A stretch of DNA of 64,000 nucleotides from Pontibacter sp. G13 (GTDB lineage Bacteria > Bacteroidota > Bacteroidia > J057). Within the stretch, counting starts at the first letter, position 1. Every line of letters starts with the position of its first letter. The translations under genes and the position numbers were made by a program. The notes under the pieces were generated by a model. That model was not told the origin of the DNA. It saw only the letters and a program-made list of their open reading frames with translations, and did no database searches. The stretch lies in contig NZ_CP134696.1 in assembly GCF_031851795.1 (NCBI RefSeq), forward strand, positions 3,926,501-3,990,500. The letters are read 5' to 3'. Below, in pieces: positions 11,784 to 19,915 of the stretch.

Positions 11784-13667
11784 ATGGCGAACAAACCGGT
11801 CTACAACGAAGACAGTATTAAATCGCTTGATTGGCGCGAACATATCCGGCTCCGTCCGGGGATGTATATCGGTAAATTGGGCGATGGTTCCTCCGCAGAT
11901 GATGGGATCTATATCCTCGTCAAAGAGGTAATCGACAACTCGATCGATGAATATGTCATGGGTCATGGCAAAAAAATCGAAGTAGATGTCAGTGCTGGCG
12001 AAGTGAAGATCCGGGATTATGGACGCGGGATTCCGCTAGGAAAAGTGGTCGACTGTGTTTCCCGAATTAATACCGGCGGTAAATACGATTCCGAGGCGTT
12101 TAAAAAGTCCGTGGGATTGAATGGAGTCGGTACCAAAGCGGTGAATGCGCTTTCCAATTATTTCCGGGTAGAATCTGTCCGAGACGGAAAGAAAAAGATT
12201 GCGGAATTTGAAGCGGGAGAACTCACCAAGGAGCACCGTATTGCCAAGACTTCAGAAGAAAACGGAACCTCAGTCTTTTTCCGCCCGGATGAGACTGTAT
12301 TCAAGAATTACCATTTTCGCCCAGAGTACCTCAAGAACCAGATTTGGAACTACGCCTATCTGAATGCAGGACTGGCTATCCAGTACAATGGCGAGCGATA
12401 TTTCTCCAAAAATGGGTTGCTGGATCTGTTGGAGGCCAAGACCGATCCCGAGAGCATTCGCTATCCCTTGATCCACCTGAAGGGGTATGATATCGAGGTT
12501 TCCATGACGCATGGCAATGCCTATGGAGAGGAATACTATTCCTTTGTCAATGGTCAGTACACTTCTCAGGGAGGTACACATCTACAGGCATTTAGAGAGG
12601 CCGTAGTGAAGACCGTACGGGATTTTTATGGTAAAAACTTCGATACAACCGATATCCGTGCCTCCATTATTGCTGCGGTCAGTATTCGCGTTCAGGAGCC
12701 GGTTTTCGAATCGCAGACTAAAACCAAGCTGGGATCGATCAATGTCGGACCTGATGGCCCTACGGTGAGGACATTCATCAACGATTTCCTCACCAAGGAG
12801 CTGGACAATTACTTGCACAAGCATCCTGATGCAGCTGAAGCATTGTTGAAGCGAATTCAGCAATCCGAGCGTGAGCGCAAGGAAATGGCTGGTATCAAGA
12901 AATTGGCAAATAAGCGTGCAAAAAAAGCCAGTCTTCACAACAAGAAATTGCGAGACTGCCGGTTCCACCTAAACGACAAACGCCGCAATGAGAGCGACAA
13001 GTTGGGAACCACGCTGTTCATCACGGAGGGTGACTCCGCTTCGGGCTCCATCACCAAGGCGCGCGATGTGGGGACTCAGGCGGTATTTAGCCTTCGAGGA
13101 AAACCCCTGAACTGCTTTGGATTGACCAAAAAGGTGGTCTATGAAAATGAGGAGTTCAATCTGTTGCAGCACGCCTTGAATATCGAAGAAGGCATTGACG
13201 GGTTGCGCTACAATCAAGTGGTGATTGCCACGGATGCCGATGTCGATGGCATGCACATTCGGCTACTGCTCTTGACGTTCTTCTTGCAGTTTTTCCCCGA
13301 TTTGGTCCGTGGTGGACACTTGTACATCTTGGAAACTCCGTTGTTCCGTGTCCGGAATAAGAAGGAGACGATTTATTGCTATTCGGAAAAAGAAAAGCTT
13401 GCCGCAGTGGAAAAGCTGAAAGGCAAGCCTGAGATCACCCGATTCAAGGGATTGGGAGAGATTTCGCCAGATGAATTTGGCGGATTTATCGGAGAGGATA
13501 TCCGATTGCAGCCTGTGATGTTGTCCAATGAGTCTGAAATCAAGAAGCTGCTGACCTATTATATGGGGAAAAATACGCCCGACCGCCAAAAATTTATTAT
13601 TCAAAATCTGCGTTTTGAACGAGATGAGGCGGAGAAGGCAAAACCCGTTGCAGAAGCGGTCTCTTGA
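11784..13667 (+). CDS. parE: DNA topoisomerase IV subunit B
   Basis: A 627-residue ATPase subunit of a type IIA topoisomerase, which decatenates replicated chromosomes. The GHKL ATPase domain has E48 in [10 protein letters not shown], the GRGIPLGK loop and [14 protein letters not shown]. The transducer domain holds QTKTKLG near 311-317. The TOPRIM metal site is TEGDSA at 414-419 with DADVDG at 484-489. It has the short ParE-type C-terminus and lacks the GyrB insertion. In many Bacteroidota parC directly follows parE; here the next gene is an unrelated hydrolase after a terminator at 13781, so parC must be elsewhere. An alternative name would be a GyrB-like paralogue, but length and motifs favour ParE. 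Confidence 0.92.
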
Positions 13668-14152
13668 TGGCTTCGAAAATTGGAAGAAATTGAGGGATTG
13701 CGAAGTTAGGCGGAAGCAATTTTCGTCTTGTTCAAGCGACGGTGATTTAATCCATTTTTTGGGATTAAAATGAATAGAAGGGAGGGGTAAATGATGATTT
13801 TACCCCTCCTTTCTTTGTATACAAGCGATGGGGTAAAGGTCATGGGGACCCGATTCCATTTGGACTTCAGTGGATCAGGAATTTGATCAAATTCTTGAAC
13901 GACTGATGGTATGTAGCTGGTTTTCAGATGAAAACTTCGCAATTCTATCCAAGCATTCCCATGCCTTGGAATAATTGGAATGTCCTGAAAATCAGATAAA
14001 AGAATCTGGTGCCCTCTGAGTTCTTTTAGTGATTCAGATTAGGTAACATGGATCGTGATAGGATCAACCCTTGTGTTGGACCCATTCCGTTCTGTTCAGA
14101 ACTACGAAGGAAACCGTTGCCCATCTGTAGGAGGATAGAAAACGCCCTGTAT
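13668..14152. other. Intergenic region between parE and the GH3/beta-lactamase fusion gene
   Basis: It holds a hairpin TTTAATCC/GGATTAAA (13746-13753 with 13762-13769) and the terminator at 13781-13817. No gene is seen in the remaining 300 bases, which should hold the promoter of the next gene. The open frame of the next gene extends back to an ATG at 14048, but I consider that unused. Confidence 0.5.
13781..13817 (+). terminator. Intrinsic terminator after parE
   Basis: GGAGGGGTAAA (13781-13791) pairs perfectly with TTTACCCCTCC (13799-13809), followed by TTTCTTTG. It lies 114 bases after the parE stop. Confidence 0.8.
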
Positions 14153-17100
14153 ATGAATGCCCCTCGGCTGAGTCTCTACATCTTTTCATTTTGTCTGCTG
14201 CTTGTTTGTTTTGCCGGAATCTACAGTTCCCATCAAGACGAAGAAGAATCCGGACTGGCTTTTCTCGATACAGAAAGCCGCTGGGCGGATTCCACCTTTT
14301 TCAGAATGTCTACCCGAGACAAGCTGGCACAGATGATCTTGGTCGTTGCAGAGGGGGACTCTTGCAAGGAGGAGGTGGATTATGCGCTCTCCAATTGGGC
14401 GGTAGGTGGTGTGGTCTGTCAATCATTGAATCCCGAATGGCAGTACGAGCTCACCCGAGCTTGGCAGGTTCAATCCAAGCGACCATTGTTGATGGGTGTC
14501 GTGGAAAGTGATGCCATGAATCCTCTGATGGAACTGCCTCAAGGAGCACAGATAGCAGCTATTCAGGATGATAGCTTGTTGATGCAAGCGGGGGCTAACC
14601 TCGCTGGAAAGCTTCGGAAAATGGGCACTCATCTATATCTTCCAGATGCGCGGACTTCACACTTCCGTTCCTATAACCAAGGGATGATGGGAGAAAAAGT
14701 CGGCGAGTTTAGCGAGGGAATATCCCAAGGAAGAATTCTGGCCTGCCCCACTCAGACCTATCCATACTACCCCAAAGAATTTGATAGCCTCCGGTTGGAA
14801 CAGCGTTTGGAGCCTTATCGGGCATTGACCCATCATGGTGCCGCCGGAATGCTCGTTCAGCCCTCCTTGATTGATAGAATCCATCTGAATTCTCGGAAAA
14901 AGCGAATTGTCAAAACCTACCTTCATGAACGAATGGGTTTTGAAGGACTTATTATGGCCCAGCTTGTGGATTCCTTGGGGGATTATGAGGAGCAGATTTG
15001 GAAAATGGTCAAAGCTGGAACCGAAATGATTCTGGTGAATCCGAAACAAGTTCCCAAGGTTTGGTCCACGCTTTTCGATCTTTATCGAAGTGGTCAACTA
15101 CCCCCTGAGGTTTTGGATGAACAGGTGAAACGCATTCTTGCAGCGAAGGCTTGGGCAGGTGTTCCTAAAGCAAAAGCTTGGGCAGCTGTAGATCGTCCAC
15201 TACAATTTCGCTCAGGAGACGAGCACCAGCTAGAGAGAAAAATGATTCATCAACAACTGGCCATTGTCAAGGATGAAGCAGACTGGATTCCTCTTTCCGA
15301 TTTAGGAAATGGACGCACGCACCTGATAACTTTAGGTAGATCTTTTGCAGCGTTTGAGAAGCAGTTGGGATGGTATGATCATCTTGAGCAGATCAAAGTT
15401 TACCCAAGACTGCCTCGAAAGATAGACTTGGAAGGAATCGAGCCCGGAGATCGAGTGATCGTTTGTGCCAATGATTCACTCAAAGCGTGGATCGACCGCA
15501 GCCCCGATTTCTTGAAGGGATTGACTGATCTCCAACGTTCAAATCAAGTAGTATTTGTGAATCTTGGCGCCTTGGCCCAGCTAGAGGTGCTTGCCCCGTT
15601 CCAAAGCATCGTCCAAGCCTACCAAGATGGTGATCTCTATCAGGAAATGGCCAGTCAAGTCATCTATGGTGGGCTTGCAAGTCGCGGAAAAATTCCGTTG
15701 GAAATCGGTCAAGATTTTGCCTTTCTACAAGGTGAGGTAAGAGGTCAGACCAGATTGGGATACGGCAGCCCAGAGTTACAAGGGCTAAGCAGTGAGGTTT
15801 TGGCTCAAATTGATGTGATCGCGGAAGATGCAATTGCTCAGCGTGCCATGCCCGGGTGCCAAGTATTGGTGGCAAAATCAGGGCAGGTCATCTATCATAA
15901 AGCCTTTGGACATCAGACTTACGCCAAGCGGGTACCGATTAACTTGAATCATATTTACGACATCGCATCCGTGACCAAGGTAGCTGCTACCACGGTTGCC
16001 ACGATGTCGGATGTTTCTGCTGGAAAAATCGATCTCAATGCACCGCTGGGAAATTTCTTTAGTGGTCGATATGTCCGAAGTGATAGCTTGACTCTGAGGG
16101 ATACAATCAAGATGGCTAAATCTGACCTGATGCCTTCTGTGGTATCTGATACGGTGGCCCAACCGATGGTCCAGAAGGTTTCAAATGTCCCTGATCAAGA
16201 GATCAAAGTTGATACGCTCACCTATTCAGCAGATACGGTGCTCTTGGTGACCACTACACATTATCCGGCTCGCCGTTATGCAGCTCGAATTTTCGATATT
16301 CCCCTGAAAGATTTGTTGACCCACAGAAGTGGATTGCCACCAGGCCTTCCGATCATTTCATTCCTCCGGCAAAGAACGCGGAGTCGAGGGGCTGATATTC
16401 CTTACTTTGCCAAGCGACCTTCTTCCGAATATTCCATCGAGGTTGCCAATGAATTCTTTTTGAGTCGGCAGAAGCAGGATATGCTTTGGCAGAAAACCAA
16501 GTTGATTCGTCCTGGGAGAAAGATCTACGAATACAGCGATGCCAATATGGTATTGCTCCAACGTGCGCTGGATTCTTTGCATCAAGAGCCTTTGGATAAG
16601 TTTTTGGACCGTACGCTTTATGCTCCATTGGGCATGCATCGTACGATGTTCAATCCACTTGATCGATTTGAGAAGTCAGAAATTGTTCCTACAGAGCGAG
16701 ATGTCTCTTGGAGACGTCAATTGCTTCAAGGGCACGTCCACGATCCTACTGCAGCACTTCAAGGCGGAGTATCAGGGAATGCTGGCCTTTTCTCAAACGC
16801 CAACGGTCTCGCGCATCTATTTCAAATGTTGTTGAATGGAGGGACCTATGGAGGCACTCGCTATATGAGCACTTCCACGGTTAGGCAGTTTACCCGAAGG
16901 GCATCGGAAGGTCATCGAGGATTGGGATTTGACAAGCCCACCAGAAGTGGCAATTATATCATAGGAAAGTCCGCCTCTCTGAATTCTTATGGACATACCG
17001 GTTTTACCGGGACTTGCGTTTGGGTTGATCCAGACCATGATTTGGTCTACATTTTCCTTTCCAACCGCGTTCATCCCAAACCTACCAATTGGCGGATCAG

Positions 17101-17176
17101 CAGTTTGAAGGTTCGTGAATCAATTCATGAGGTGGTTTACGAAGCGATAGCTCTTGCAGAACATGCTTCGATGTAG
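14153..17176 (+). CDS. GH3-like (degenerate) / serine beta-lactamase-like hydrolase fusion protein
   Basis: About 1007 residues from the ATG at 14153, which opens a signal sequence (MNAPRLSLYIFSFCLLLVCF); the frame is open back to 14048. Residues about 30-350 align with the GH3 N-terminal barrel of beta-N-acetylglucosaminidases, but the KHFPGHG motif is replaced by PTQTYPY (from P199), and the TDA nucleophile motif by M268-A-Q270. This domain is therefore probably not catalytic. Residues about 580-1000 form a penicillin-binding/beta-lactamase-like domain with S606-V-T-K609, Y794-S-D and H948-T-G, all intact. Such fusions are known in Bacteroidota and may act in cell-wall recycling. Its stop codon directly touches the stop of the convergent hydrolase (TAGCTA). 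Confidence 0.85.
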   Translation: MNAPRLSLYIFSFCLLLVCFAGIYSSHQDEEESGLAFLDTESRWADSTFFRMSTRDKLAQMILVVAEGDSCKEEVDYALSNWAVGGVVCQSLNPEWQYELTRAWQVQSKRPLLMGVVESDAMNPLMELPQGAQIAAIQDDSLLMQAGANLAGKLRKMGTHLYLPDARTSHFRSYNQGMMGEKVGEFSEGISQGRILACPTQTYPYYPKEFDSLRLEQRLEPYRALTHHGAAGMLVQPSLIDRIHLNSRKKRIVKTYLHERMGFEGLIMAQLVDSLGDYEEQIWKMVKAGTEMILVNPKQVPKVWSTLFDLYRSGQLPPEVLDEQVKRILAAKAWAGVPKAKAWAAVDRPLQFRSGDEHQLERKMIHQQLAIVKDEADWIPLSDLGNGRTHLITLGRSFAAFEKQLGWYDHLEQIKVYPRLPRKIDLEGIEPGDRVIVCANDSLKAWIDRSPDFLKGLTDLQRSNQVVFVNLGALAQLEVLAPFQSIVQAYQDGDLYQEMASQVIYGGLASRGKIPLEIGQDFAFLQGEVRGQTRLGYGSPELQGLSSEVLAQIDVIAEDAIAQRAMPGCQVLVAKSGQVIYHKAFGHQTYAKRVPINLNHIYDIASVTKVAATTVATMSDVSAGKIDLNAPLGNFFSGRYVRSDSLTLRDTIKMAKSDLMPSVVSDTVAQPMVQKVSNVPDQEIKVDTLTYSADTVLLVTTTHYPARRYAARIFDIPLKDLLTHRSGLPPGLPIISFLRQRTRSRGADIPYFAKRPSSEYSIEVANEFFLSRQKQDMLWQKTKLIRPGRKIYEYSDANMVLLQRALDSLHQEPLDKFLDRTLYAPLGMHRTMFNPLDRFEKSEIVPTERDVSWRRQLLQGHVHDPTAALQGGVSGNAGLFSNANGLAHLFQMLLNGGTYGGTRYMSTSTVRQFTRRASEGHRGLGFDKPTRSGNYIIGKSASLNSYGHTGFTGTCVWVDPDHDLVYIFLSNRVHPKPTNWRISSLKVRESIHEVVYEAIALAEHASM

Positions 17177-18287: not shown

Positions 18288-19091
18288 CTAAAATCCGAAA
18301 TAGAATTGTAAGAAGCTACTGAAAATATTGAAGGGAAGCCATTCCCCAATACCGGGCCCTACATTTGGGATGAAAGAGGATTCTTGGTATTGAATACCGA
18401 TAGATGCCCCAAATTCTGTGGACTTATAGGTTCGCCGTTTCATGCCAAAATACAATTGACTATGTAAGCCCCCTGAAGCCAGGTTGACTCTCCAGGCGGT
18501 ATTGGCCGCGAATGCGTATCCAAATCTTACCCCGCCAAATGGACTGATGACGCCTGTTCCAATCGTTTGTGTTGCTTCTAGGTAAACAGGGACAATTGTT
18601 CCTGTGCTGAAAGATTGGTAGCCGATTCCTCCTCCGATGCTTGTTTGAGATTGGAATCTGTAGCCTACATTCCCAGAAATGGATACACCGAGGGCATTCC
18701 ATTCCCCAACAGCAGCTGGCACCGAAAAAAAGCGAAAGTCAATGGTGGCGAACGCACGGTTTCGGGGGATCTTGATGATGTTTCTATTAAAATTATAGCT
18801 CCGGTTGAGTTGCTGGAGTCTTCCTTCCTGAACTTCAATGGAGGCAATTTTGTCCTGTTCGATGATGTAAAGGCTTTCGTTGGCGAGCTGGAGGTGAATT
18901 GCCTCACCGGGGATTTGGCGGACAATGGTACCTCTGATCACCTGACCATCCTTTAGATGGATTTCATGCTCATAAGTGTAGGGGAAATTCTGTCCAAGTG
19001 AAGGTATTGCTCCCCAAAGCCAAATGAGTCCCAGCAGGAGTATCCATTTTGGGTGGTGGATCATGGAAGGATTGTGTGAAAGGTTGTTCAT
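18288..19091 (-). CDS. Outer-membrane beta-barrel protein with N-terminal KDGxxxRGxIV domain (paralogue 2)
   Basis: A 267-residue exported protein. After a signal peptide (ILLLGLIWLWGAIPSLGQ) comes a small beta domain with LKDGQVIRGTIVRQIPGEAI and YIIEQDKIASIEV. The C-terminal 170 residues alternate polar and aromatic residues as in an eight-stranded outer-membrane barrel and end in LQFYFGF, with an aromatic last residue. It is a tandem paralogue of the upstream gene and overlaps it by four bases (ATGA), so the two are translationally coupled. The start could also be the Met ten codons on (MIHHPKW). Function unknown. Confidence 0.75.
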   Translation of the reverse strand: MNNLSHNPSMIHHPKWILLLGLIWLWGAIPSLGQNFPYTYEHEIHLKDGQVIRGTIVRQIPGEAIHLQLANESLYIIEQDKIASIEVQEGRLQQLNRSYNFNRNIIKIPRNRAFATIDFRFFSVPAAVGEWNALGVSISGNVGYRFQSQTSIGGGIGYQSFSTGTIVPVYLEATQTIGTGVISPFGGVRFGYAFAANTAWRVNLASGGLHSQLYFGMKRRTYKSTEFGASIGIQYQESSFIPNVGPGIGEWLPFNIFSSFLQFYFGF

Positions 19092-19915
19092 ATTCGGACA
19101 GAGAGTTTCCAGATGATGTTTTGATAAAGCCGGAATCCAGTAATTCGGGCGGGTTCAAGTTCCACCCAATTGCCTGATGGATCGAAGAAGAAACGTTCAA
19201 CGTTGTAATCCGCAAAGCTTTGTTGGGCATGATATCCCACACTGAGAATCCATGCGGACTTTTTCGCCGAGAAAATGGCAATTCCTACTGATGCTTCAAT
19301 ATTCCACAATGCGCGGTATTCGAAGTATTCCGGATCGGGGGCAGTGGCGAACCCATATCCTCCCTGAAAGTGGTAGTAAATGCTCTTGGGCCGATAATTC
19401 AAAAACCCATGATTGGATAGGAAAATGGGGAAGATATTGCCCGGAGGATAAGGAGAAATGCCGAATCCAAGCCCTGGATTGAACCATTTGTTGATGTGCA
19501 ACCCTGCTTCCACTTGCATATTGGGAACCATTTCCGGTCCAAATTCCCCATTCTTGAAGGCGATACTTCCCGAAATCATCGAGAACATGGGACCCTCTGG
19601 ATATTGATAAGGGATGAATGCCTTCTTGTATTTGGGTTTGAACCTTCTGAATCTATTCGCCTCGACCGTAATTTTCTGAATCTCATGCTGCTGAAAAGTA
19701 AAATCTCCATCTATGGGGATTCTGAGGACAATGTGAGATCCAACTACCTGTTCCACGATGTTACCTCTTAGTACACTTCCGTTTTTTAGTAGGACCACAT
19801 GCTCTGTCTGCGATTGAAACTGCGCATGTAGATGAAGTGGCATGACCATCATGAGGCCCGCGATTAAGCAAAGAAACGGTATGAATGTATGAAAAGGACT
19901 ACTGAGTGAATTCAT
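19088..19915 (-). CDS. Outer-membrane beta-barrel protein with N-terminal KNGxxxRGxIV domain (paralogue 1)
   Basis: A 275-residue exported protein and first gene of a coupled pair. A signal peptide (LCLIAGLMMVMPLHLHAQ) is followed by the beta-rich domain LLKNGSVLRGNIVEQVVGS and FQQHEIQKITVEA, matching the paralogue downstream. The rest resembles a barrel with GLGFGISPYPPGNIFPIFLS and a final WKLSVRI. The N-terminal motif, a short strand-turn-strand describing a KDG.v.G.I pattern, occurs in many Bacteroidota exported proteins of unknown role. Divergent from the LVIVD lipoprotein, with a 217-base intergenic region that holds a candidate promoter. Confidence 0.75.
   Translation of the reverse strand: MNSLSSPFHTFIPFLCLIAGLMMVMPLHLHAQFQSQTEHVVLLKNGSVLRGNIVEQVVGSHIVLRIPIDGDFTFQQHEIQKITVEANRFRRFKPKYKKAFIPYQYPEGPMFSMISGSIAFKNGEFGPEMVPNMQVEAGLHINKWFNPGLGFGISPYPPGNIFPIFLSNHGFLNYRPKSIYYHFQGGYGFATAPDPEYFEYRALWNIEASVGIAIFSAKKSAWILSVGYHAQQSFADYNVERFFFDPSGNWVELEPARITGFRLYQNIIWKLSVRI

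Follow-up and report, generated by a model that had tools for sequence, protein, structure and literature searches.

A GH3-serine hydrolase fusion protein of the Bacteroidota whose GH3 catalytic site has been lost

The window analysed here, a stretch of 64,000 nucleotides of Pontibacter sp. G13 (contig NZ_CP134696.1, positions 3,926,501 to 3,990,500 of the forward strand), carries at 14153-17176 on the plus strand a gene encoding a 1007-residue protein, in the position and frame given by the first-pass annotation. A longer open reading frame, from 14048, is possible; the ATG at 14153 yields an N-terminus resembling those of the orthologues. Taken together, the open reading frame, Pfam, AlphaFold and VIA-align describe the product as a degenerate GH3 barrel, a GH3 second domain and a serine hydrolase, all features below lying on the plus strand. 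An AlphaFold2 model, computed from a 40-row alignment (mean pLDDT 86.6), places these parts in the order helix 3-28, strands and helices alternating as in a barrel up to about residue 334, an alpha/beta second domain and the hydrolase. The N-terminal hydrophobic helix (residues 3-28; 14159-14236), recognised in the model and by hydropathy, is a probable membrane anchor. All eight orthologues with a complete N-terminus have such a hydrophobic stretch and none of the eight matches a lipobox, while three of four scanned relatives outside the family that also lack the GH3 motifs have a lipobox-like match. From its sequence, this protein is likely to be tethered to the membrane.

The GH3 barrel (about residues 36-340; 14258-15172) matches PF00933 with an E-value of 6e-11 (42.8 bits against a cut-off of 27), the best stretch, residues 217-330, being the end of the barrel. 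The GH3 second domain follows (about residues 365-540; 15245-15772); it has no Pfam match in this protein, whereas a canonical paralogue matches PF01915 there, and was delimited by a fold match to NagZ that extends up to residue 532. The beta-lactamase-fold serine hydrolase occupies residues 545-1000 (15785-17152) and matches PF00144 over residues 557-976 (E = 1.9e-44). In structural comparisons, the best Foldseek match was NagZ/YbbD of B. subtilis (3bmx, 4gyj). VIA-align superposed residues 38-532 on 3bmx with Z 31.5, an rmsd of 4.5 and 16% identity over 484 aligned residues, so that both this match and PF00933 indicate a GH3 fold. Residues 535-1007 gave as their top hydrolase match EstG of Caulobacter (7u1c; Z 37.2, rmsd 2.6, 336 aligned), followed by family VIII carboxylesterases. 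EstG is the closest solved fold for this half, at 23% identity, and the matched chain has no GH3 part. Compared with the canonical fusion L088, the Z score of the NagZ match drops from 52.5 to 31.5, while that of the EstG match is steady (37.6 versus 37.2).

In the order of its three domains, the protein resembles RmNag3 from Rhodothermus marinus, which according to the accessible part of its paper (PMC6987092) is the only characterised enzyme of the architecture, is active as a beta-N-acetylglucosaminidase and is likened by its authors to the NagZ/AmiE set-up of B. subtilis. The GH3 residues on which such an enzyme depends are lost in the protein described here. A paralogue in the same genome (L041, C1:5105232-5108057) has the same domain order and retains KHFPGHG, DSH and TDALNM intact. 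A further GH3 gene (L005) lies on a 92.9-kb contig of this genome.

The GH3 site includes a Lys-His pair that binds the sugar, an Asp-His acid/base dyad and a nucleophile aspartate; a D318N mutant of NagZ is named in PDB titles. The intact L041 aligns to B. subtilis NagZ (3bmx) at 282 bits, and its KHFPGHG, DSH and TDA correspond, counted along that alignment, to NagZ 221-227, 232-234 and 317-319, which maps the key positions K221-H222, D232/H234 and D318. Aligned to NagZ and L041, residues 199-205 of the protein (14747-14767) read PTQTYPY in place of KHFPGHG, the lysine being replaced by T200, the first histidine by Q201 and the second by Y205. The Asp-His loop that should follow is deleted, as is the arginine of the RSF motif. 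MAQ at 268-270 (14954-14962) occupies the nucleophile segment, with Q270 at the position of D318. The first-pass annotation had read PTQTYPY and MAQ in just these places, and the alignment bears it out.

We compared nine orthologues from one Bacteroidota family with 11 canonical paralogues of that family. The Lys-His pair, the Asp-His dyad and the RSF arginine are gone in all nine and all present in all 11, and the canonical motifs are intact in 66 of 66 canonical rows among the best 80 matches of a scan of GTDB contigs. Because the residues are missing from every orthologue and kept in every canonical paralogue, the sequences indicate that the GH3 catalytic site was lost, and not by chance. 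The loss is common to the nine proteins; the particular replacements are not. Where the canonical enzymes are invariant, the columns of the nine read TTRSKGGQW (lysine), QDFPED--E (histidine) and YYHYFY--W (second histidine), and those of D232, H234 and the RSF arginine contain only gaps. One row does have a lysine in the lysine column, but without the histidine. The nucleophile column, QEEEDPTDR, has aspartate in two of nine and glutamate in three, and the two orthologues with the aspartate lack the rest of the site. Conservation of the same substitutions among homologues, which the first-pass annotation had proposed to look for, is thus not what the column shows. Nor has the domain been kept at full length, as that annotation supposed: in five places, within or close to the catalytic motifs and substrate loops, 3-10 residues have been deleted, and the barrel measures 301-309 residues in the six orthologues with the most complete barrel as against 342-344 in the five canonical proteins listed. 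About 38 residues, mostly of catalytic loops, have been trimmed from the barrel relative to NagZ and the intact same-genome fusion. Of 60 GH3 positions with at least 95% conservation among 77 intact fusions, 18 are retained in the protein described here and between 14 and 22 in the orthologues.

A substitute aspartate nucleophile elsewhere in the barrel, the one finding that would have overturned the first-pass reading, was sought by sequence and secondary structure in the orthologous and canonical rows, and none was found. Within residues 36-340, aspartate or glutamate occurs in at least seven of the nine rows at columns 46, 140, 211, 216, 273 and 291; most canonical enzymes likewise have an acid at 46, 211, 216 and 291, whereas 140 and 273 are not acidic throughout. 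The best conserved of these acids, D211 and that at 291, both match non-catalytic acids of the active enzymes. A large alignment suggested D211 as the dyad aspartate. This candidate was rejected: the family alignment pairs D211, ungapped, with the aspartate of NHDQKRLD, and in the model a helix starts directly after D211, with no histidine. There is likewise no conserved polar pocket in the nine barrels, where the only H, K, R, Y, S, T, N, Q or C residues kept in at least eight rows are Q60 and K332, both of which are invariant in active enzymes as well.

The hydrolase half presents the opposite picture. SVTK (606-609; 15968-15979, with Ser606 and Lys609), YSD (794-796; 16532-16540) and HTG (948-950; 16994-17002), representing the SxxK, Tyr and H/K-T-G motifs, are all present, as first annotated. 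S606, T608 and K609 are invariant in eight orthologues and in the 40-row alignment. Of the 45 hydrolase positions at least 95% conserved in the 77 intact fusions, 44 are retained here and 43-45 in each of the nine rows. The first-pass reading of a lost GH3 site beside an intact serine-hydrolase site is thus supported. A single position, 876 (16778-16780), differs between groups, being His in 70 of 77 canonical proteins and Asn in 17 of 19 rows of the clade lacking the GH3 motifs; this asparagine may possibly mark a change of substrate. An insert of about 77 residues (637-713; 16061-16291), specific to the lineage and modelled with low confidence (pLDDT about 45-58), interrupts the hydrolase. 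Inserts of 62-85 residues occur in the nine orthologues, in five relatives that lack the GH3 domain and in L083; the remaining rows that were listed have 9 residues there. The best named profile for this half is PBP4B (NCBIfam NF002968), at 171.8 bits and hence far below its curated cut-off of 385; PBP4B (YfeW)/AmiE-type hydrolases are its nearest named relatives, from which it differs by the lineage-specific insert. We read this half as a PBP4B/AmiE-type serine hydrolase that probably acts on cell-wall fragments.

Orthologues were found in nine of the 13 genomes of the family that were examined, representing eight genera, and in none of nine other genomes of the order. A sample of 395 genomes of the phylum, including that of the window, gave no other match of comparable strength (best 2e-74). 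At a contig end of G009, a fragment (L162) that is 56% identical to residues 910-1000 may belong to a tenth orthologue. Eight of the nine genomes also carry the intact fusion (L041, L047-L053), which was not confirmed in the ninth, G007. The scan of GTDB contigs took the best 80 matches to this protein, so that the proportions of intact and dead sites among them are no measure of prevalence: of 76 loci aligned, 66 have intact motifs, nine have lost them and one, L159, is partial and was excluded from both counts. L080, L081 and L082, which share their contigs with G003 and G006, and L100, for which only a 397-residue frame is available, were left out of this alignment.

A tree was built from 60 rows and 575 columns of the second domain and the hydrolase, excluding the GH3 domain and mostly empty columns; of the scan's 66 canonical rows it included 23, and L044 and L159 were omitted. 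The nine orthologues, five GH3-less proteins and five others with a dead GH3 (L083, L084, L098, L119 and L129) lie past one branch of length 0.49 with 100/100 support, and no row with an intact GH3 falls within that clade. Within a 97/94 clade, the orthologues, supported by themselves at 95/75, have the five GH3-less rows as their sister group. Another set of dead proteins, L105, L139, L152 and L156, forms a 100/99 group joined to canonical Cytophagales rows (100/99); we call these Cytophagales-type. The metagenome-assembled bins from which several of the names derive may be wrong. Two changes of state suffice on this tree, and a single dead clade was rejected (p-AU 0.001, the group having been named after the tree was seen). 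As judged from these sequences, the Cytophagales lost the GH3 motifs independently of the clade that includes our protein. The five genomes outside the family with a dead member of that clade each carry a fusion with KHFPGHG and DSH as well, the nucleophile pattern being matched in three of five. In the four Cytophagales-type genomes a second full-length fusion was not seen, the full-length fusion found in each being the one with the dead GH3; apart from it, every one of these genomes encodes a GH3 frame of 378-455 residues with KHFPGHG and DSH or DTH. The GH3-less sisters (L039, L042, L043, L045 and L046) are about 700 residues long, keep the N-terminal hydrophobic helix, the second domain and the hydrolase, and have YSC instead of YSD. 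A second GH3-less group (L040, L054 and L055), placed apart in the tree, has HSG for HTG and YSG for YSD.

The three domains have diverged at different rates. Over the same eight genomes (28 pairs), the mean identity of the GH3 domain is 26% among the orthologues versus 59% among the canonical proteins, that of the second domain 31% versus 47% and that of the hydrolase 48% versus 55%, the orthologues being the lower in 28 of 28 pairs for each domain. Codons of the orthologous GH3 domains differ at 0.49 of second and 0.71 of third positions. The latter value is near saturation, so that dN/dS cannot be estimated for these proteins; the lower value at second positions indicates some constraint on the barrel. 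For one close Cytophagales-type pair with a dead GH3, L105 and L152, dN/dS is 0.053 in the GH3 domain, 0.113 in the second domain and 0.008 in the hydrolase, rough figures since the synonymous distance ranges from 0.41 to 0.82 between domains. Some of the canonical control pairs were saturated. The dead GH3 domain is under strong purifying selection in the Cytophagales and so has some role there. That pair represents the other dead group and is no proof that selection acts on the barrel encoded in the window.

A ParE/GyrB-like gene lies directly upstream of the gene described here (11784-13667), as parE does in four genomes (that of the window, G004, G006 and G007), and no cell-wall recycling cluster was found in the neighbourhoods of the orthologues. 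By eye, an inverted repeat resembling a terminator (13780-13820) separates the parE-like gene from the fusion gene, and two genes of unknown function at 18288-19915 on the minus strand have similar N-terminal halves. In the accessible part of one account (PMC5061867), yfeW (PBP4B) belongs to the murQ operon of E. coli, and murQRP of B. subtilis is followed by amiE and nagZ, whose products break down muropeptides one after the other. In Thermomicrobium, the gene of a relative with 33% identity to part of the hydrolase has nagA and anmK on either side and lies close to murQ and a beta-N-acetylhexosaminidase gene; the genome of the window has one AnmK. No recycling genes lie beside a PBP4B of Priestia or a serine hydrolase of Enterococcus, although a MurR/RpiR-type regulator lies about 7 kb away in Priestia; their absence is weak evidence against a cell-wall context. 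With modest confidence, we regard cell-wall fragments as a likelier substrate than glucan.

The explanation we favour, at about even confidence, is that the protein arose by divergence of a paralogue of the RmNag3-type fusion of Bacteroidota, in which the dead GH3 domain would be a scaffold, a spacer or a remnant and the hydrolase would cut substrates derived from peptidoglycan. That fusion amounts to a NagZ joined to a PBP4B/AmiE-like hydrolase; in the present protein the barrel has lost its sugar-binding and catalytic residues and loops and is still predicted to fold. Such a barrel might hold the membrane-anchored hydrolase out into the periplasm, or it might be in the course of being lost, as has happened in the GH3-less sisters. 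Ser606, with Lys609 and Tyr794, would form an acyl-enzyme on peptidoglycan-derived substrates, the bond cut being most likely the MurNAc-L-Ala amide or a bond of the peptide stem, with no prior removal of GlcNAc. Several observations weigh against this explanation: the parE neighbourhood of the gene, the reported glucan substrate of EstG and the acidic residue at the nucleophile column in five of nine orthologues. In addition, the barrel is kept in nine genomes of eight genera, although nothing would require a mere remnant to be kept.

That the barrel is functionless and decays passively, only the serine hydrolase being of consequence, seems to us unlikely. It is true that the barrel diverges fastest, has suffered loop deletions and has vanished from the GH3-less relatives; yet it can still be aligned at 26% mean identity, and the difference between second and third codon positions speaks for some constraint. 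The nine orthologues also have no frameshift, an argument that is blunted by the downstream hydrolase, which would itself select against frameshifts. If the barrel does serve, it might do so by binding carbohydrate, as a module that keeps glycan chains or muropeptides in place for the hydrolase, much as the first-pass annotation suggested. Its retention, its predicted folding with good confidence and the low dN/dS of the one Cytophagales pair, whose dead GH3 has a role, would fit this. The divergence of the barrel, far faster than that of the hydrolase, the absence of a conserved polar pocket in nine orthologues, the deletion of the RSF arginine and substrate loops, the loss of the Lys-His pair and a sister group that manages without any barrel speak against it, and we consider it quite improbable, though the barrel might bind through a different face, or in a subset of the orthologues. 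A glycosidase with a rearranged active site is scarcely credible: the acids found at the nucleophile column in five of nine rows are accompanied by no new conserved acid in the barrel, and the dyad loop and substrate arginine are deleted in all nine.

Doubts of another kind concern the hydrolase, which could act outside peptidoglycan, for instance on an ester of a periplasmic glycan as EstG does, leaving the barrel as a leftover. EstG and the family VIII carboxylesterases are indeed its top structural matches, and in the accessible part of the relevant paper (PMC11389396) the substrate of EstG is reported as a cyclic glucose hexamer and EstG and BglX are described jointly as enzymes of periplasmic glucan metabolism. 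On the other hand, the nearest profile is that of PBP4B and relatives lie in muropeptide-recycling clusters, and we hold such a substrate to be rather unlikely.

RmNag3-type fusions were already known. The form with a dead GH3 domain appears to be new, no published description of it having been found in one open-licence library; of most interest is that the loss came about repeatedly and independently. A broader and distinctly tentative interpretation is that Bacteroidota have at least twice turned a two-headed muropeptide enzyme into a hydrolase with a pseudo-GH3 domain maintained by selection, the barrel having been exapted for regulation or positioning, and that one genome may hold an intact fusion, a dead fusion and a barrel-less protein. 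The architecture is widespread in Bacteroidota, and annotation based on PF00933 alone would make such proteins glucosidases or hexosaminidases. For the intact fusion, GH3 activity is the sole activity that we found described in the accessible part of the source. That one head has been lost more than once, with the other staying fixed, suggests two separable activities, and the natural versions with a dead barrel or with none provide a means of examining what the hydrolase gains from the GH3 half.
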